Shown here: positions 4,379-19,389 of the stretch, one piece after another
Layout of the letters: every line of letters starts with the position of its first letter
Numbering within the stretch: position 1 is the stretch's first letter
The notes under the pieces: model-generated
Seen by the model: the letters and a program-made list of their open reading frames with translations, nothing else
Database searches by the model: none
What the model was told of the DNA's origin: nothing
Made by a program: the position numbers and the translations under genes
NCBI GenBank assembly: GCA_027623205.1
Contig: JAQBYC010000048.1
Span: 1-33,566 of the forward strand
Length of the DNA: 33,566 bases
Source: Pseudomonadota bacterium
GTDB lineage: Bacteria > Pseudomonadota > Alphaproteobacteria > GCA-2731375
Direction of reading: 5' to 3'

Positions 4379-5266
4379 TTACATTGCCAAATCATTCTTC
4401 AAGTCCTGATACATCCGCAGGGCGTTGGCGGCGGTTTCATTGCGATGGACCACGGCGGCCACGGCCTGGATCATCGCCACGGGGCTGTCCGATTGGAAGA
4501 TATTACGGCCCATGTCGACGCCGGCCGCACCCTGGTCCACGGCCCGGAAAGCCATCTCCAAGGCTTCGCCTTCGGGGAGTTTTTTGCCCCCCGCGATGAC
4601 GATCGGAACCGGACAGCCCGCCACCACCCGCTCGAAGCCGTCTTCGATGAAATAGCTTTTTACATAGTGCGCGCCGATTTCGGCGGCGATTCTGGTGGCC
4701 AGGCCAAAATACCGGGCATCCCGCGCCATATCGGCGCCGACCCCGGTAACAGCCAGGGTGGGAATGCCATAACGGCTGCCCGTATCGATCAGCTTCACGA
4801 CATTGGCGATGGATTTATGCTCGAACTCGGCGCCCACATAGATCTGCGCGGTTATGGCGGCGGCATTCAGGCGTATGGCGTCCTCGATGTCCACCGCCAC
4901 CAGCTCGTTGGACAATTCCGTCAGGATGCTTTGCCCGGCCGAGGAGCGCAGCACCACGGGCTTGTTGGCGGTCGGGGAAATACAGCTACGCAAGGCGCCG
5001 CGGGTACACATTAGGACATCGGCATGGGGGATCAGTGGCGGGATCGCCAGGTCCATGCGCTCAATGCCGGTGGTCGGGCCCTGAAAATACCCGTGATCGA
5101 AGGCCAGCATCACGGTACGGCCGGTTTTGGGGTTGAATATCCGCGATAGGCGGTTTTGCATGCCCCAGTCCAGGGCATTGGAACCCTTCAGAAAAAACGG
5201 CTCGTTCCGCGCCGGCGTATCCAGACCAAAATCCTTGCCTTCCTTGATATCATCAAGATCCGCCAT
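4379..5266 (-). CDS. lsrF: LsrF-family thiolase/class I aldolase
   Basis: The 295-residue product aligns closely, from memory, with E. coli LsrF along its whole length, starting at MADLDDIK. It carries H58 in [14 protein letters not shown], the Schiff-base lysine K203 in YVKSYF (same number as in E. coli), [16 protein letters not shown] and [12 protein letters not shown]. coli LsrF transfers an acetyl group from 3-hydroxy-2,4-pentadione-5-phosphate to CoA at the end of autoinducer-2 breakdown. Here no lsrACDB, lsrK, lsrR or lsrG lies alongside, so the true substrate may differ. The upstream in-frame ATG at 5290 is less likely than 5266, which has AAAGGAAA just before it and gives the family N-terminus. 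The next gene on this strand is a CitE-like lyase. Confidence 0.88.
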
Positions 5267-5338
5267 GGGCAGATTTCCTTTCCAAGTCATTTACCTGATT
5301 GTAAAGCGGCCGACAGGCAAGCGCGTAGCGATTTCTGC

Positions 5339-5737
5339 CTATTTCCGGCCGCTCAGGGCGCTGATCACATCGATCAGCATGGTCTTGCTCTCCGCCTCTA
5401 TCTTGGCAGTGTGTTGGGTCTGTTCATGGCGCATTCTTGCACTGATGTGATGCAACTCCGCAAGGCGCTGCAGTTCCGCCTGATGATTGTCCAGCAAGCG
5501 CTCAATCTCGACATGATGGCGGTCCATCAGGTCCGCAATCACGGCCTTCAAATCCGCGACTTGCGCCGCATGTAATTGTTTCAGGTCGGCGATGCGCGCC
5601 TGATTCAAGACCTGCAGGGGATCCATTAGCTCGGGTGTCGGGGCCGCAAGGGTGGAGTGCGTCTCCGAAACGACAGCTGTGTCATCGGCGGGCGCCTGCC
5701 CCCCGCGCCGTCGTCTTCCTCTGGCATTGCAGCCCAC
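5339..5737 (-). CDS. Coiled-coil C-terminal half of a frame-split HTH protein
   Basis: This reading frame (132 residues from GTG 5737) is dominated by a long charged helix, with heptad-like leucines through QARIADLKQLHAAQVADLK and on to the end, and probably forms a coiled coil. The GTG has no Shine-Dalgarno sequence and lies inside the preceding frame, so independent initiation is doubtful. Joining it to the upstream frame at the six-G run gives a 202-residue protein with an N-terminal helix-turn-helix and a C-terminal coiled coil, a sensible architecture for a DNA-binding dimer. I do not recognise a named family. It could also be the tail of a gene broken by one lost base. Confidence 0.6.
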   Translation of the reverse strand: MGCNARGRRRRGGQAPADDTAVVSETHSTLAAPTPELMDPLQVLNQARIADLKQLHAAQVADLKAVIADLMDRHHVEIERLLDNHQAELQRLAELHHISARMRHEQTQHTAKIEAESKTMLIDVISALSGRK

Positions 5738-5946
5738 GCCACTGGCGAGGTAACGCCGGCGCGGACGTAACCCGTCAAATCATAAGGGGTTCGGACAAGA
5801 ACCCGGCCATCCGGGTCAACCCGGGTCCCAATAGCCTGGCGGGACATTCGCAAGCGCAAAATTTCATCGCTGACGCCCAGTACGGCAGCGGCATCGGCTA
5901 CCGGCAGCCAGCGCGCTTGGCTATCGCCGATTGGGTCAGTTGACAT
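5626..5946 (-). CDS. Helix-turn-helix N-terminal half of a frame-split protein
   Basis: The first 58 residues hold a MerR/excisionase-like helix-turn-helix: RWLPVADAAAVLGVSDEIL, a second helix RLRMSRQAIG, then a wing-like strand pair DPDGRVLVR. From about residue 84 the frame becomes arginine- and proline-rich (RRPPMTQLSFRRRTPPLRPR), typical of out-of-frame reading in this genome. That suggests the native frame is left at the six-G run at 5704-5699. A -1 shift there joins residue 83 to the coiled-coil frame. Its start ATG 5946 has no strong ribosome binding site. It is not in an obvious operon; lsrF follows on the same strand. Confidence 0.6.
   Translation of the reverse strand: MSTDPIGDSQARWLPVADAAAVLGVSDEILRLRMSRQAIGTRVDPDGRVLVRTPYDLTGYVRAGVTSPVAWAAMPEEDDGAGGRRPPMTQLSFRRRTPPLRPRHPS
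5698..5706 (-). other. Six-G run forming a possible -1 slippery site
   Basis: On the minus strand the upstream frame reads GCG GGG GGC here, so G GGG GGC fits the X XXY YYZ heptamer used in -1 ribosomal frameshifting. Slipping back one base leads straight into the coiled-coil frame. A homopolymer indel, real or from sequencing, is the simpler alternative. Confidence 0.5.
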
Positions 5947-6070
5947 TGCCAGGGCTCACGGAACGGGCCTTTCGAAAAAATAACCTACCCGATTGTAGCC
6001 ATCCAAGACCACCAAACGCCAATGCGTGTTGGCCGCAGGGTTGTCGATCAGTGTGTTTGTGCTAAAGCCG

Positions 6071-6418
6071 CTAGGCGACGCGGAAACTCTCGCCGCAGCC
6101 GCAACGGTCTGCTTCATTGGGATTATTGAAGACAAAGGTGGACTGGAACTTGTCGACCTTGAAATCCATTTCGGCGCCGACGAGGAACATGATGGCCGTG
6201 GGATCGATGAAGACTTTCACGCCATCGGTTTCCACTTCTTCCTCGAATCGCTTCTTTTCCCTGGCGTATTCGACTTCATACATCAGACCCGAACAACCGC
6301 CTGTTTTGACGCCGACGCGCAGGGCAAGAACGTCACCGTCGCTACGCACCATCAATTCCTTGGCGCGCGCGATCGCCGCTGCCGTCATCGTTAGTACCGG
6401 TGGTCTTTCCATGACCAT
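6071..6418 (-). CDS. sufA: A-type iron-sulfur carrier SufA/IscA
   Basis: This 115-residue A-type carrier has the three invariant cysteines: C42 in GGCSG and C106/C108 in RCGCGES. It receives or delivers Fe-S clusters, and possibly iron, between the SufBCD scaffold and target proteins. The start ATG 6418 has AGGGAA a few bases upstream; a second ATG two codons later has no such site. It is the last gene of the suf operon, 53 bases after sufT. That gap holds a perfect GCGCCAA/TTGGCGC palindrome, so expression here may be modulated separately. Confidence 0.93.
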   Translation of the reverse strand: MVMERPPVLTMTAAAIARAKELMVRSDGDVLALRVGVKTGGCSGLMYEVEYAREKKRFEEEVETDGVKVFIDPTAIMFLVGAEMDFKVDKFQSTFVFNNPNEADRCGCGESFRVA

Positions 6419-6437
6419 GTTTCCCTATTCCCCAATA

Positions 6438-6453
6438 GCGCCAAGTTTGGCGC
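6438..6453. repeat. Palindrome in the sufT-sufA gap
   Basis: GCGCCAA (6438-6444) and TTGGCGC (6447-6453) are perfect complements with two bases between. As RNA this would be a short hairpin in front of sufA; as DNA it could be a binding site. No T-tract follows on the minus strand. Confidence 0.4.
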
Positions 6454-6471
6454 AGTTATCTTGACACAACC

Positions 6472-6888
6472 TTAAAACATATCCAATTCGACACGGGCCG
6501 CTTCCGACATCATGGACATATCCCATGGCGGGTCCCAGACCAGTTCAACGACGACTTCCCCCACGCCCTCTGCCTCTGACACCGTGCGGGCCAGATGGCC
6601 CGGCAGGACGCCGGCGACAGGACAGCCTGGCGCGGTCAAGGTCATCTGAATATCCACATCGCCAGCCGGTCCAATCTTGTAGTCATAGATCAAACCAAGT
6701 TCAAAAATATTGACTGGAATTTCCGGGTCATAGACTTCCCGCATGGCGTCAATCACCGCCGCTTCCGAAGCCACGGCGATACCCTCGGCCAGTGGGTCGC
6801 CGGCACGGGCCTTGCCATCCTCGTCCAGTTCCGGTCCGTTCAAATGGCCAAAAGGGTTAGGCGACCCGTAGAAATCCATATCCGACAT
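6472..6888 (-). CDS. sufT: SufT/MIP18-family Fe-S assembly factor (DUF59)
   Basis: The 138-residue protein contains the DUF59 signature: VYDPEIPVNIFELGLIYDY (about 52-70) and MTLTAPGCPV with the conserved cysteine C89, then VELVWDPPW. SufT proteins assist Fe-S maturation in organisms using SUF. PaaD, a related family member, serves phenylacetate oxygenase, but the position inside a suf operon argues for SufT. About 40 N-terminal residues before the domain are polar and probably flexible. GAGG lies eight bases before ATG 6888, and the gene is 15 bases after sufE. Confidence 0.9.
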   Translation of the reverse strand: MSDMDFYGSPNPFGHLNGPELDEDGKARAGDPLAEGIAVASEAAVIDAMREVYDPEIPVNIFELGLIYDYKIGPAGDVDIQMTLTAPGCPVAGVLPGHLARTVSEAEGVGEVVVELVWDPPWDMSMMSEAARVELDMF

Positions 6889-6903
6889 ATTTGTTCCTCA
6901 ACC

Positions 6904-7344
6904 TTAATCCGCCGCTTCCGCGCGCGCCGCTTGCAAGCTCAACTTTTGCATATGTTTCAACATCGCCATCATGCCCACCTGGCGCTGCATTGTCAGCGCG
7001 CCCAGGTTCAGGCCGCGTACGTGATCCAAGCTAACGCTGGCCAGTTCAGCGCTCGTCAGACCACTGAATGAACCGGTCATCATGGATACCAGGCCCTTGA
7101 CGATGATGGCATCGCTGGCACCCTGAAATTTATGCCGGTCATCCTCGCGGGTATGAATAATCCAGACTTTGGACATACAACCGTGCATCAAATGGGCATC
7201 ATCCATGCAGTCCGCCGGGAAGGGGACCTTGTCAGCCCGTTTGCCAATATCAATGATGTATTCAAAGCGGCTCTCTTCGTCGAGCATATCCAAGGCCTCG
7301 ACATATTCGTTGTATTGGGCCAAATTTTCAGCGGCTATGGTCAT
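6904..7344 (-). CDS. sufE: Cysteine desulfuration protein SufE
   Basis: The 146-residue SufE accepts persulfide sulfur from SufS and passes it to SufB. The acceptor cysteine is C56 in HLMHGCMSKVW. The N-terminal YNEYVEALDMLDEESRFEYI and the FSGLTSAEL segment are typical. The length is normal. The start ATG 7344 is preceded by AGGTAGAG, and the gene lies 18 bases after sufS in the same operon. Confidence 0.95.
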   Translation of the reverse strand: MTIAAENLAQYNEYVEALDMLDEESRFEYIIDIGKRADKVPFPADCMDDAHLMHGCMSKVWIIHTREDDRHKFQGASDAIIVKGLVSMMTGSFSGLTSAELASVSLDHVRGLNLGALTMQRQVGMMAMLKHMQKLSLQAARAEAAD

Positions 7345-7362
7345 GGCTCTACCTGACGTCCC

Positions 7363-8631
7363 TCATCCGAACAAGGTCCGCGCCCGTTCCAGGGCTTTGA
7401 TCATGGTATCGATCTCGTAGGTGGTGTTGTACATGGCCAACGAGGCGCGCACGGTGCCATCGACGCCCAGTCGGGCCATCAATGGTTCGGCGCAATGCTG
7501 CCCAACCCGTACCGCGACCCCTGCGCGGTCCAACGTGGCAGCCGTATCAAAGGGATGAATACCCTGTTGGATGAACGATAGGATCGCCGCTTTTTCGGGC
7601 GCCGTGCCGAACAGCTGAATATCGGGCAGTGCCATCAGGCGTTCCGTGGCATAGGCCAAGAGCAACCTTTCGTGCGCCGCTATTGCCTCCATCCCGATCG
7701 CAGAGACGTAGTCGATTGCGGCCCCCAGGCCGATCGCCTCGACAATGGGCGGCGTGCCCGCTTCAAAACGATAGGGCGGCTCCTGATAGGTGGTTTTCTC
7801 GAAAGTCACCGTGGCGATCATGTCGCCGCCGCCCTGATAGGGTGGCATTTGCGCCAGCAATTCGGCCTTGCCGTACAATACACCAATGGCATTGGGACCG
7901 TACAACTTGTGTCCGGTGAAGACATAAAAATCCGCATCCAGCGCCTGGACGTCAACGGTGCCGTGGACCACCGCCTGGCTGCCGTCCAATAGCACGGGAA
8001 TGCCGCGCTCATGAGCTAGACCCACGATCTCCGCCGCTGGCAGCATGGTCCCCAGCACGTTGGAGCAATGGGTGATGGCCACAAGCTTGGTGTTTCCGTC
8101 CAGTAATGCGGCATAGGCATCCAGATCCAGAACCCCGGCATCATCGATCGGCGCCACCTTCAGCTCAATGCCTTTTTCATCGCGCAACATTTGCCAGGGC
8201 ACGATGTTGGCATGGTGCTCCATGGCGCTGACGAGGACGCCATCGCCCTTGCCCAGAAATTTTCGGCCATAGGTGGCGGCCACTAGGTTGATCGCCTCGG
8301 TTGTGTTGCGCGTGATCACGATCTGATTTTCCGACGGCGCATTGATAAAGCGGGCGATTGTCTCGCGCACCCCTTCATAACGGTCGGTCAGGGTTTGGCT
8401 TAGATAGTGGGCGCCACGATGGACGTTGGTATATTGGTTTTCCAATACTTCGGTCATGGCATCGATCACCGCGCGCGGCTTCTGGGCCGAAGCACCGCTG
8501 TCAAAATAGACCAATGGCTTGCCATGAATTTGACGGCTTAGAATGGGGAAGTCCTGGCGTATCCGCTCCACATCGAAGCCGCCCTCGATATTGTGGCCCG
8601 GCTGGCTGCTGGGTTGTCCGATGGCATTCAT
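7363..8631 (-). CDS. sufS: Cysteine desulfurase SufS (class II, PLP-dependent)
   Basis: This 422-residue class V aminotransferase-fold enzyme releases sulfur from cysteine as a persulfide for SufE. The PLP lysine is K242 (TGHKLYGPN), the stacking histidine is in MEHHANIVPW, and the catalytic cysteine is C380 in RVGQHCAEPLM, matching the SufS rather than the NifS/IscS type. Start choice: a TTG at 8643 is possible, but ATG 8631 overlaps the sufD stop in an ATGA arrangement, the usual sign of translational coupling. About 18 residues precede the conserved domain. Confidence 0.95.
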   Translation of the reverse strand: MNAIGQPSSQPGHNIEGGFDVERIRQDFPILSRQIHGKPLVYFDSGASAQKPRAVIDAMTEVLENQYTNVHRGAHYLSQTLTDRYEGVRETIARFINAPSENQIVITRNTTEAINLVAATYGRKFLGKGDGVLVSAMEHHANIVPWQMLRDEKGIELKVAPIDDAGVLDLDAYAALLDGNTKLVAITHCSNVLGTMLPAAEIVGLAHERGIPVLLDGSQAVVHGTVDVQALDADFYVFTGHKLYGPNAIGVLYGKAELLAQMPPYQGGGDMIATVTFEKTTYQEPPYRFEAGTPPIVEAIGLGAAIDYVSAIGMEAIAAHERLLLAYATERLMALPDIQLFGTAPEKAAILSFIQQGIHPFDTAATLDRAGVAVRVGQHCAEPLMARLGVDGTVRASLAMYNTTYEIDTMIKALERARTLFG

Positions 8632-9890
8632 GACGCCATCCAATCCGCGACCAGCCCTGTCAAAATCCCGCGCACCGCTTCGTCACTGGTCTTATCCAGG
8701 GTCTGGGCGACAAAGGCCGTCATCAGCAATTGCCGCGCCTCGGCCTCTGGAATACCGCGCGAGCGCAGATAGAACAGGCCAGATTCATCCAGTTCCCCGG
8801 CGGTCGCGCCGTGGCTGCATTTCACGTCGTCGGCCAGGATTTCCAATTCCGGCTTGCTGTCGATTTCCGCCTTGTCCGAAAGCAGCAGGGTCTTGTTCAA
8901 TTGATGCCCTTCGATGCCCTGGGCATCCCGGCGCACCGTAATTTTACCCTGAAAGACGGCGTGCGCCTTGTTATCCAGAATGCCGCGGTAATCCTGATGG
9001 CTGGTATTGCCCCCAACCACATGATCCATCCAGATGGCATTGTCGCAATGCTGGGTCCCGCGCAATAGATAGATGCCGTTCAAGGCGGCATCCGCGCCGG
9101 CGCCTTGCAGGGCGATGTGAATTTCACTGCGGACCAACTGGCCACCCAAATTCAGGTCGAAATTCTCCAATTTGGCGCCGCCGTCCAGTTGTCCGGCCAG
9201 CGTAGCGATATGGCTGGCGCCCATGGCTTCCTGTTGGATCTTGTAACGGCGCAGATGCGCACCGGCGGCGGCCTGTAGCTCCGTGACGGCGTTAAGGAAA
9301 TAATCGCCTTCAATATCGCCGCCATGACCTAGGTAATGTTCCACCACCGTGGCCTGGGCGCCGGCGCCGGCCAGGATCAGGTTGCGCGGATAACTTGCGC
9401 CCTGGCCTGACAAAAATGATATCTCAATCGGCCGTTCCACGACGCTGCCGGGTTCCAGCAGCAGGACGTAACCATCCCGGCTCAAAGCCTGGTTCAGGGC
9501 GGGCAGGGGTAGTTGTTGGCCCGTGGCTACCTGGCCCAGACGGCCGGCCAGAAGCTCCGGCGCATCCTTCATGGCCTGGGCCATGCTCAGCAGGCGCAAT
9601 CCCGATGGCAGGTCCGTGGCCCCCGTGTGCAGGACGCCGTTGCTGAACACCAGCCGATGGCTGTTGGCCAGCAGGGCCGGGGGCACAATGCCCATCCGAC
9701 CCGCGCCCCTGGTAAACAGGCGGTCCTGGATCGGTTTCAGGCTGGTATAACGCCAGGCCTCCACCTTGCGGTCCGGCAAACCGCTGGCTTCGAACCGTGC
9801 TGCCGCTGCCGCCCGCAACGCGGTCAGCCAGGGCAGGCCGGCGCCGGGCAGATCGGCCGCTAATTCATCCTGATACGCCTGCAGAGACAT
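8628..9890 (-). CDS. sufD: Fe-S assembly scaffold subunit SufD
   Basis: The 420-residue SufD is the partner of SufB in the SufBC2D scaffold and helps iron entry. It shows the SufB/SufD beta-helix core, with IWMDHVVGGNTSHQDYRGIL and the C-terminal ADDVKCSHGATAGELDESGLFYLRSRGI, including the conserved cysteine and histidine of KCSHGAT. The N-terminal RKVEAWRYTSLKP is typical. GGAGGCGG lies before ATG 9890, three bases after the sufC stop. It overlaps sufS by four bases. Confidence 0.95.
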   Translation of the reverse strand: MSLQAYQDELAADLPGAGLPWLTALRAAAAARFEASGLPDRKVEAWRYTSLKPIQDRLFTRGAGRMGIVPPALLANSHRLVFSNGVLHTGATDLPSGLRLLSMAQAMKDAPELLAGRLGQVATGQQLPLPALNQALSRDGYVLLLEPGSVVERPIEISFLSGQGASYPRNLILAGAGAQATVVEHYLGHGGDIEGDYFLNAVTELQAAAGAHLRRYKIQQEAMGASHIATLAGQLDGGAKLENFDLNLGGQLVRSEIHIALQGAGADAALNGIYLLRGTQHCDNAIWMDHVVGGNTSHQDYRGILDNKAHAVFQGKITVRRDAQGIEGHQLNKTLLLSDKAEIDSKPELEILADDVKCSHGATAGELDESGLFYLRSRGIPEAEARQLLMTAFVAQTLDKTSDEAVRGILTGLVADWMAS

Positions 9891-9893
9891 GGT

Positions 9894-10658
9894 CTAGGCC
9901 GCCTCCGCCCCGTCGAGGAATTGGGCATAGCCCTTTTCTTCCAGCTCCAACGCCAATTCCTTGCCGCCCGAGCGCGCGATCCGGCCATGGGCCAGCACGT
10001 GGACATAATCGGGCACGATGTAATCCAACAGGCGTTGGTAATGGGTGATCACCAGCAGGGACCGGGTCGGCCCGCGCAGGGCATTGACGCCGTCGGCAAC
10101 CACCTTTAGGGCATCGATATCGAGGCCGCTGTCGGTTTCGTCCAGCACCGCCAAATAGGGTTCCAGCAACGCCATCTGCAGGATTTCGTTGCGCTTCTTT
10201 TCGCCGCCCGAAAAACCGACATTGACACCGCGCCGCAACATTTCGTCATTGATGTTCAGGCTGGCCGTATGCTGACGCAGACGCTTCATGAATTGCACCG
10301 CATCCAGTTCATCCTCGCCGCGCTGACGCCGCACTGCGTTGACGGCGGTTTTCAAAAACGTGGTGGACGAGACGCCGGGCAATTCGACCGGATATTGAAA
10401 GCCCAGAAAGATGCCTTGTGCGGCCCGTTCCTCGATCGCCATCTCGGTCAAATCTCGGCCCTGATAAGTGATGGAACCGGCCGTGATGTCATATCCATCC
10501 CGCCCGGAGATGACGTAGGACAATGTGCTTTTGCCAGAGCCGTTCGGGCCCATGATAGCGTGCACTTCGCCGGTGCCGATGGTCAAATCGATACCCTTGA
10601 GGATCTCGGTGCCGGCAACTTCGGCATGCAGGCCCTTAATTTCCAACATGTTACTCAT
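9894..10658 (-). CDS. sufC: Fe-S assembly ATPase SufC
   Basis: This ABC-type ATPase (254 residues) powers conformational change of the SufBCD scaffold. The Walker A motif GPNGSGKS is at 37-44, the signature FSGGEKKR at 149-156, Walker B ending in LDETDSGLD near 172-180, and the switch histidine in LLVITHYQR. The open frame extends upstream into sufB, but that part does not resemble SufC. The start ATG 10658 gives MSNMLEIKGL and sits two bases past the sufB stop; the TAGGA at that stop doubles as a weak ribosome binding site. Confidence 0.96.
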   Translation of the reverse strand: MSNMLEIKGLHAEVAGTEILKGIDLTIGTGEVHAIMGPNGSGKSTLSYVISGRDGYDITAGSITYQGRDLTEMAIEERAAQGIFLGFQYPVELPGVSSTTFLKTAVNAVRRQRGEDELDAVQFMKRLRQHTASLNINDEMLRRGVNVGFSGGEKKRNEILQMALLEPYLAVLDETDSGLDIDALKVVADGVNALRGPTRSLLVITHYQRLLDYIVPDYVHVLAHGRIARSGGKELALELEEKGYAQFLDGAEAA

Positions 10659-10662
10659 ATTC

Positions 10663-12120
10663 CTAACCGACGCTGCCTTCCAGTGAAATACCAACCAGTT
10701 TCTGCGCCTCGACGGCGAATTCCATGGGTAATTTCTGCAAGACCTGCTTGCAGAAGCCATTGACGATCATGGACAGAGCTTCTTCATCCGACAGGCCCCG
10801 TTGGCGGCAATAAAACAGCTGATCTTCGCTGATTTTTGCCGTCGTTGCTTCATGTTCGATCTTCGCCGAGCGGTTACGGTTTTCGATATAGGGCACCGTG
10901 TGGGCGCCGCATTTATCGCCGATCAGCAGGCTGTCACACTGGGTATAATTTCGCCCGCCCTTGGCGCCCGGCTGCATCCGCACAAGGCCGCGATAGGTGC
11001 TTTGCGAACGGCCGGCGGAAATGCCCTTGGCGATAATGGTCGAGGAGGTATTTTTCCCGATATGGATCATCTTGGTGCCCGTATCGGCCTGCTGCATGTT
11101 GTTGGTGATGGCGACGGAATAGAATTCACCCACCGAATTGTCACCCTGCAGGATACAACTGGGATATTTCCAGGTCACGGCGGAGCCGGTTTCGACCTGA
11201 GTCCACGAGACCTTTGAATTGCGGCCTCTACACGCTGCCCGCTTGGTGACGAAATTATAGATCCCGCCTTTGCCGTCCGCATCCCCCGGATACCAGTTCT
11301 GTACCGTGGAATACTTGATTTCGGCGTCGTCCATCAGCACCAGCTCGACGACGGCGGCATGTAACTGATTTTCGTCCCGCATGGGCGCGGTGCAGCCCTC
11401 CAGATACGAGACATGGCTGCCCTCGTCGGCGATGATCAGGGTGCGTTCGAACTGCCCCGTATTGGCCTGATTGATGCGGAAATAGGTGGATAACTCCATG
11501 GGGCAGCGGACGCCCTTCGGGATGTACACGAAGGAGCCGTCGGTGAAAACGGCGGAATTCAGCGTGGCGTAATAATTATCGGAATAAGGCACGACGGAGC
11601 CCATATATTTCCGCACCAGTTCGGGGTGCTCCTGCACCGCCTCGGAGATTGGGCAGAAGATCACCCCGGCCTTGGCCAGTTCCTTGCGGAACGTCGTGGC
11701 GACGGAAACGCTGTCAAACACCGCATCCACCGCGACGCCGGCCAGCATGGCCTGTTCATGCAGCGGAATACCGAGTTTTTCGTAGGTGCGCAGCAATTCC
11801 GGGTCGACCTCATCCAGGCTTTTCGGGCCATCTTCCATGGATTTCGGCGCGGCATAATAATAGGCGTCCTGAAAATCGATCTCCGGATAGTCAACCTTGG
11901 CCCAGGACGGCTCCTCCATGCCCAACCAGCGTTCATAGGCGCGCAGGCGCCATTGCAGCATCCAGTCCGGCTCGTTCTTCTTGGCCGAGATGAAGCGTAT
12001 GATGTCTTCATTCAGGCCCTTGGGGGCCATTTCCGTCTCGATATCCGTGACAAAACCGTACTTGTACTTGTCCCCGGCAATCGAAGAGACCTGTTCGGCC
12101 GTTTCCGCCGTATAGCTCAT
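10663..12120 (-). CDS. sufB: Fe-S assembly scaffold subunit SufB
   Basis: The 485-residue SufB is the main cluster-building scaffold. Family blocks seen include [46 protein letters not shown], and the C-terminal [19 protein letters not shown] with [22 protein letters not shown]. Its ATG shares one base with the stop codon of the Rrf2 regulator gene (TAATG), and GAGGG lies 10 bases upstream, so translation is probably coupled to the regulator. Confidence 0.96.
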
Positions 12121-12626
12121 TATGGCGCCCTCGTAATCTGTGTTTCCGGTTTAATATCAGCTTGTTGAACGCCAGTCTTAATTTCTAATCTCAATTCATC
12201 CGATGCCGGCTTAAAGGCGAAGGGCCGGGGCATCATGTCGGCCAGGCTAACACCTTGCAGGGCGCCTTCAATGGCGCGGTTGACCTGGTTCCAATGGCCG
12301 CTCATGGCGCACAACGGCAGAGAGCCGCACGACGTATCAGCGCCGTCGATGCAGGCGGTCAGGGCAATGGGACCTTCCAGGGCGGTGACAATCTCCGCCA
12401 CCGATATATTTTTGGCAGCCCGGCCCAGGCTATAACCGCCACCGGCGCCCCGGTGCGAGATCAAGATATTTGCTTTGCCTAATTGTTTCAACAGCTTGGA
12501 GACCGAGGGCAGGGGCACACCGGAATCCAGCGCTATCCGTGCCGCCGTCACGACTTTGCCGTGATCGCCGGCCATATGGCTCAACATAACGACGGCGTAA
12601 TCTGTCATTTTATTCAGGCGGATCAT
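12120..12626 (-). CDS. Rrf2-family Fe-S-sensing regulator of the suf operon
   Basis: This 168-residue Rrf2-type regulator heads the suf operon. A winged helix-turn-helix spans about residues 1-70 ([41 protein letters not shown]). Three cysteines, C92, C100 and C106, sit where IscR ligates its [2Fe-2S] cluster, but the first gap is seven residues rather than five. It probably senses Fe-S status and represses suf when clusters are plentiful, as in the alphaproteobacterial and Xanthomonas-type suf regulators. ATG 12626 is chosen over 12650 because GAGG lies about seven bases upstream and the domain starts there. A palindrome just upstream is a candidate operator for autoregulation. Confidence 0.92.
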
Positions 12627-12640
12627 CGGCCACCTCATAT

Positions 12641-12661
12641 ACAGGACCAAAATGGTACTGT
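12641..12661. promoter_or_regulatory. Candidate operator for the Rrf2 regulator
   Basis: ACAGGACC (12641-12648) and GGTACTGT (12654-12661) form an imperfect palindrome, seven of eight pairs, around AAAAT. It sits between the -10 box and the start codon of the regulator gene. A further inverted copy of the half-site, CAGTACC, lies at 12734-12740 on the mipA side. Confidence 0.5.
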
Positions 12662-19380: not shown

Positions 19381-19389
19381 GAGGGGCCC

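Follow-up and report, generated by a model that had tools for sequence, protein, structure and literature searches.

A frame break beside a run of six G residues in a genus-confined helix-turn-helix gene: probably an unprogrammed single-nucleotide loss with the look of programmed −1 frameshifting

Programmed −1 frameshifting of the dnaX type uses an X XXY YYZ slip site with an SD-like element upstream. According to the parts of PMC4066793 drawn on here, slippage in E. coli in the presence of stimulators is most efficient at C_CC.A_AA.G, G_GG.A_AA.G, and A_AA.A_AA.G; UUN and AAN codons outperform GGN codons, homogeneous ZZN codons are more prone to shifting than heterogeneous ones, and G_GG.G_GG.U without a stimulator gave the lowest value of all. 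G_GG.G_GG.C is absent from the list of 18 plus 3 selected motifs in those parts of the study. With the strong IS3 pseudoknot, 61 of the 64 heptamers passed the threshold, and section 17 of the same paper does not have G_GG.G_GG.C among its three named failures. Frame breaks of another kind affect one member of a gene group while its relatives are intact, and these are mainly ascribed, in the portion of PMC3711429 that concerns us, to sequencing error or a recent indel.

The locus described here resembles the dnaX type in having an in-frame X XXY YYZ heptamer and an SD-like element upstream. It differs from it in that the heptamer is G GGG GGC, no significant structure lies downstream, and there is neither conservation nor any broken frame in the relatives. 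With the singleton frame-broken genes of PMC3711429, as far as that source was drawn on, it shares a break in one genome, intact relatives, and the lack of a conserved recoding signal, the difference being that the break in our gene lies at a run of Gs that formally fits the heptamer pattern, which gives it a programmed look. The case cleanly illustrates that a run of Gs beside a frame break can imitate programmed frameshifting.

The stretch of DNA analyzed (the window, 33,566 nucleotides) is contig C109 of a 5.0-Mb assembly comprising 228 contigs and 96.94% complete. By Pfam matches, from which the Suf gene names used here are interpreted, the order on the minus strand is Rrf2-type regulator, SufB, SufC, SufD, SufS, SufE, SufT-like, SufA, the split gene, and a DeoC/LacD-type class I aldolase. 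Minus-strand positions 4379 to 12650 of the window hold a complete suf cluster followed by the class I aldolase, as in most of the genus members examined, and at the suf/aldolase junction the helix-turn-helix gene forms a variable insert. The features relevant to the split gene are as follows.

4379..5290, minus strand: class I (DeoC/LacD-type) aldolase, constant neighbor of the split gene (Pfam and genus comparison).
5339..5737, minus strand: downstream ORF in the −1 frame, 132 amino acids, carrying the remainder of the linker and a predicted long, coiled-coil-like helix; relatives match from about 5683 on.
5624..5628, minus strand: TAATG, where the stop of the upstream ORF overlaps an ATG of the downstream frame, a possible reinitiation site (sequence).
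5626..5946, minus strand: upstream ORF, 106 amino acids, with the start, a predicted winged helix-turn-helix (about residues 10 to 62), the first part of the linker, and 23 off-frame residues past the G run.
5699..5704, minus strand: six-G run, read as G GGG GGC in the frame of the upstream ORF, with the frame switch at or near it (sequence, alignment, and frame model).
6071..6418, minus strand: SufA-like Fe-S protein, final gene of the suf cluster, upstream of the split gene (Pfam and genus comparison).

A preliminary description of this locus had reported overlapping N- and C-terminal frames, a six-G run fitting the X XXY YYZ pattern, and a 202-residue product of their fusion by a −1 shift, all of which were borne out on the minus strand: the coordinates and frames are correct, the six Gs at 5704-5699 are followed by a C so that the heptamer (5704-5698) lies within the ORF overlap in the upstream frame, and a −1 step at the run yields 83 + 119 = 202 residues. 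A Viterbi frame model based on the genome's own codon usage, to which the position of the run was not supplied, placed the coding switch at 5697; both frames therefore have coding character, and the assembly genuinely contains the break. The join at the G run described as clean does work there, but the downstream frame is free of stops from 5779 and a −1 join is equally clean at any of the approximately 50 doubly open codons (5779-5629), so that the exact site of the shift is one we infer.

Comparison with the genus shows that the gene is normally uninterrupted. A family profile matched 5 of the 11 genus genomes, this one (G000) in two pieces, and in all four other carriers the match lies in a single open frame without internal stops (stop-free codons: 205 in G002, 286 in G006, 344 in G009, and 306 in G008). 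The split gene measures 608 nt against 609 nt in the nearest relative, G002, from which it is separated by one 1-nt gap adjoining the run, the alignment being otherwise free of indels, and the intact G002 product has the same 202 residues as the −1 fusion. At the corresponding place G002 has no X XXY YYZ heptamer, only a run of five Gs a few bases away. The programmed frameshifting suggested in the preliminary description thus fails the conservation test set in advance, with 4/4 other carriers uninterrupted and the nearest of them devoid of the slip site. No match to the gene was found in any of four other genomes of the family, and a class-wide draw of 385 genomes returned only two genus genomes (G000 included) plus one genome with short helix-turn-helix matches; the gene is confined to the genus.

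The association between the run and the break was assessed against the genome's unbroken genes, taken as all stop-to-stop stretches of at least 750 nt, longest first and nonoverlapping, a few of which may be nongenes. The resulting 168 long ORFs (72,363 codons) contain 251 X XXY YYZ sites and 19 in-frame G GGG GGN heptamers, 11 of the latter GGGGGGC. About 0.17 X XXY YYZ and 0.013 G GGG GGN sites are accordingly expected in a doubly open stretch of some 50 codons, and with an expectation of about 0.01 the G run and the frame break probably belong together. Such a link is explained equally well by ribosomal slippage, a slipped-strand deletion, or an error in base calling.

We conclude, with a probability of about 0.88, that a gene of approximately 202 codons suffered the unprogrammed loss of 1 nt at or near the G run. 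The gene would be a single unit encoding a winged helix-turn-helix, a disordered linker, and a long C-terminal helix, from which 1 nt is missing at or near the run; if the loss is real, the product made by the organism would be a helix-turn-helix protein of 106 residues that ends in an off-frame tail and lacks the C-terminal helix, and we infer that no frameshift corrects the break. The split gene is a singleton frame break of an ordinary kind. Of the four options offered in the preliminary description, the best fit is given by a decayed gene or a sequencing error, programmed frameshifting and phase variation being unlikely. For most such cases the matter can be settled by one test, i.e., a search for intact relatives of the same length combined with a count of the heptamer in the unbroken genes of the same genome.

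A single-nucleotide loss could have occurred in the organism or only in the consensus, and a real, recent mutation is slightly favored. This possibility, a null or truncating change in a dispensable gene, has in our estimate an even chance. It is favored by the patchy distribution of the gene, which the profile search did not find in 6 of the 11 genus genomes, G010 included. A tree built from seven Suf proteins plus the aldolase (IQ-TREE; 10 genomes, all but G003) places G000, G002, and G010 in a clade with 100% support, its inner order being weakly supported (62), and the absence of the gene from so close a neighbor suggests that it can be dispensed with. In keeping with a loss of either origin, the break maps to a stretch of linker that is predicted to be disordered and varies widely in length.

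Relative to G002, codons 1 to 70 show 81% identity and a dN/dS of about 0.28, and the last 93 codons show 74% identity and a dN/dS of about 0.12, dS over these 93 codons being above 1 and imprecise. The C-terminal frame has no stop and no second lesion. Because both halves are conserved and the C-terminal frame is open, the break is either recent or not real, and judged by its sequence the C-terminal half is not an old pseudogene. The low C-half dN/dS and the lack of further damage count against a real mutation, but the C-terminal half has evolved slightly faster here, with 11 unique changes in G000 versus 3 in G002 when G006 serves as the outgroup and 11 versus 5 with G009 (N-terminal half: 1 versus 3 and 6 versus 3, respectively). 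This mild acceleration is weakly compatible with a recent relaxation of constraint.

The other possibility, that the organism's gene is intact and the consensus or assembly gives the G run one base too few, we hold more tentatively, at rather less than an even chance. It would explain the constraint on both halves and the intact relatives of equal length; in addition, a GC-rich hairpin covers the run, the assembly shows damage in at least one further coding locus (L035, near 19384), and the part of PMC3711429 on which we rely assigns singletons with intact relatives mainly to error. Against it stands the behavior of other runs in the same assembly. Codon usage served to score the coding frame to either side of each G/C run in the window and 20 further stretches (341,913 nt), which contain 51 runs of exactly six. 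Under strict thresholds the run in the split gene was not scored as shifted, and looser settings, four in all, were then used. With 180-nt flanks and thresholds of 5/4, 34 of the 51 six-runs could be scored, of which 31 lay in one frame, 1 between opposite strands, and 2 at a shift, namely the split-gene run and L030 17304, the latter being the junction of two complete ABC-ATPase-like ORFs. Over the four settings the shifted runs were these two plus L027 5136, again a junction of two complete ORFs, and L024 11097, which adjoins a natural gene junction at 11130. As no other scorable six-run in the sampled 341,913 nt marks a true frame break, the assembly is not generally failing at such runs, and a general homopolymer failure was rejected, though the assembly may have failed at this one run.

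At L035 (19167-19998, contig C106 of this genome), two frames meet near 19384 in another probable frame break. In the ORF that follows, a short GT87 N-terminal piece (below the cut-off) is joined to the beginning of an AMP-binding domain. The locus is either decayed or an assembly chimera, and such damage is rare but not unique in the assembly.

Programmed −1 frameshifting, by which ribosomes slipping at the run would make a short and a long protein, is very improbable. Several features do recall it: the in-frame G GGG GGC within the overlap, an SD-like AGGA 13 to 16 nt upstream of the run, the exact 202-residue fusion, the coincidence of run and break beyond chance, and the activity of most heptamers with a strong IS3 pseudoknot, G_GG.G_GG.C not being a named failure in the part of PMC4066793 considered. 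An SD-like 4-mer occurs at that upstream distance from 395 of 5,000 random in-frame positions and from 1 of the 19 other in-frame G GGG GGN sites. There is, however, no stimulatory RNA structure beyond chance downstream of the heptamer, the 60 nt that follow folding with a z score of −0.46 (60 of 200 shuffles were as good) and 9 of the 19 control sites in unbroken ORFs being followed by RNA of equal or greater stability. A wider fold with the run included has a z score of −2.03 (6 of 200 shuffles), which speaks in favor of slippage, but the slip site itself would be enclosed in the hairpin of that fold. The GGN and heterogeneous ZZN codons of the motif belong to those that shift poorly, and the heptamer is outside the 18 plus 3 motifs of the portion of PMC4066793 cited. 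Programmed frameshifting was rejected on the strength of its nonconservation, the missing downstream structure, the poor motif, and the presence of the same heptamer in unbroken genes. One form of it, a lineage-specific cassette newly arisen by the single-base loss in which G GGG GGC and AGGA together yield both protein forms, is no more probable; if true, one indel would have given rise to two forms of a regulator, one with the helix-turn-helix only and one full length.

Less probable still is a fission into two proteins, the second translated by stop-start reinitiation at TAATG, where the downstream-frame ATG (5626-5624) overlaps the upstream stop (5628-5626). This overlap and the persisting constraint on the C-terminal half would suit it, but G002 has TTG instead of ATG at this position, so that there was no ancestral ATG start, a TG after the stop is expected by chance in about 1 of 16 cases, and a good ribosome binding site is lacking, the only candidate being a weak GAG 3 nt upstream. 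Least probable of all is a phase-variable G tract switching the gene on and off, which the homopolymer at the break would suit but which found no positive support: the tract has only six bases, seven being the minimum for such repeats in the section of PMC3711429 used here, the nearest relative has only five Gs, a few bases away, and six-base G/C runs are common in the genome, as counted above.

The helix-turn-helix and the long coiled-coil-like helix proposed in the preliminary description are supported, the winged fold of the former tentatively, by structure prediction. The model of the N-terminal ORF shows the order of elements of a winged helix-turn-helix (pLDDT of about 83 to 89 over residues 11 to 50), and its best Foldseek matches include the Xis structure 4j2n and the BldC structures 6ama and 6amk (probability, 0.91 to 0.99; target-normalized TM score, about 0.54 to 0.62; E value, only about 0.1). 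The model of the intact G002 protein has the same N-terminal domain, a low-confidence segment over residues 63 to 105 that is presumably disordered, and a single helix over residues 110 to 201 (pLDDT mostly 92 to 98), in which a coiled-coil nature is plausible. Compared with the BldC, Xis, and MerR-type winged helix-turn-helix proteins, the split gene thus adds a long linker and a 92-residue C-terminal helix. The linker differs greatly in length between species, its long forms being rich in P, E, and R (L005 796-1818 and L011 874-1725). The protein would bind DNA and probably self-associate through its C-terminal helix.

Searches of Pfam and NCBIfam gave no family above the cut-off (HTH_17 reached 16.6 bits against a cut-off of 27 in one relative), PHROGs gave only weak matches, and the PDB sequence search gave only a chance-level match (E value, 0.26). 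Neither the 72,556 plasmid records nor the 50,697 phage records searched contained a match that would indicate a mobile or phage origin, and a literature search for such a gene linked to suf found no paper, by which we do not claim its absence from print. The family is small, genus confined, and aldolase linked, and of modest interest.

Positions 5200 to 6150 contain no promoter-like site and a single terminator-like match, inside the split gene, where 0.6 is expected by chance per shuffle. In G000, G002, G006, and G009, sufA and the aldolase flank the gene. In G004, G005, G007, and G010, sufA and the aldolase are spaced by approximately 135 to 290 nt with no such gene between them, and in G001, where the search did not find the gene, the distance is 3.4 kb; gene order was judged in the genomes other than G003, which has no orthologous sufA match. 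In G008 (C269; L064 6217-7631), no sufA match occurs on that stretch of contig and the gene directly precedes the aldolase, its match ending at 6672 and the aldolase beginning at 6723. The aldolase adjoins the gene in 5/5 carriers and, on gene order, is its constant partner; that the two occur together away from sufA in G008 suggests that the gene is linked in function with the aldolase and not with Fe-S assembly, and the predicted DNA-binding protein perhaps acts on the neighboring aldolase gene.
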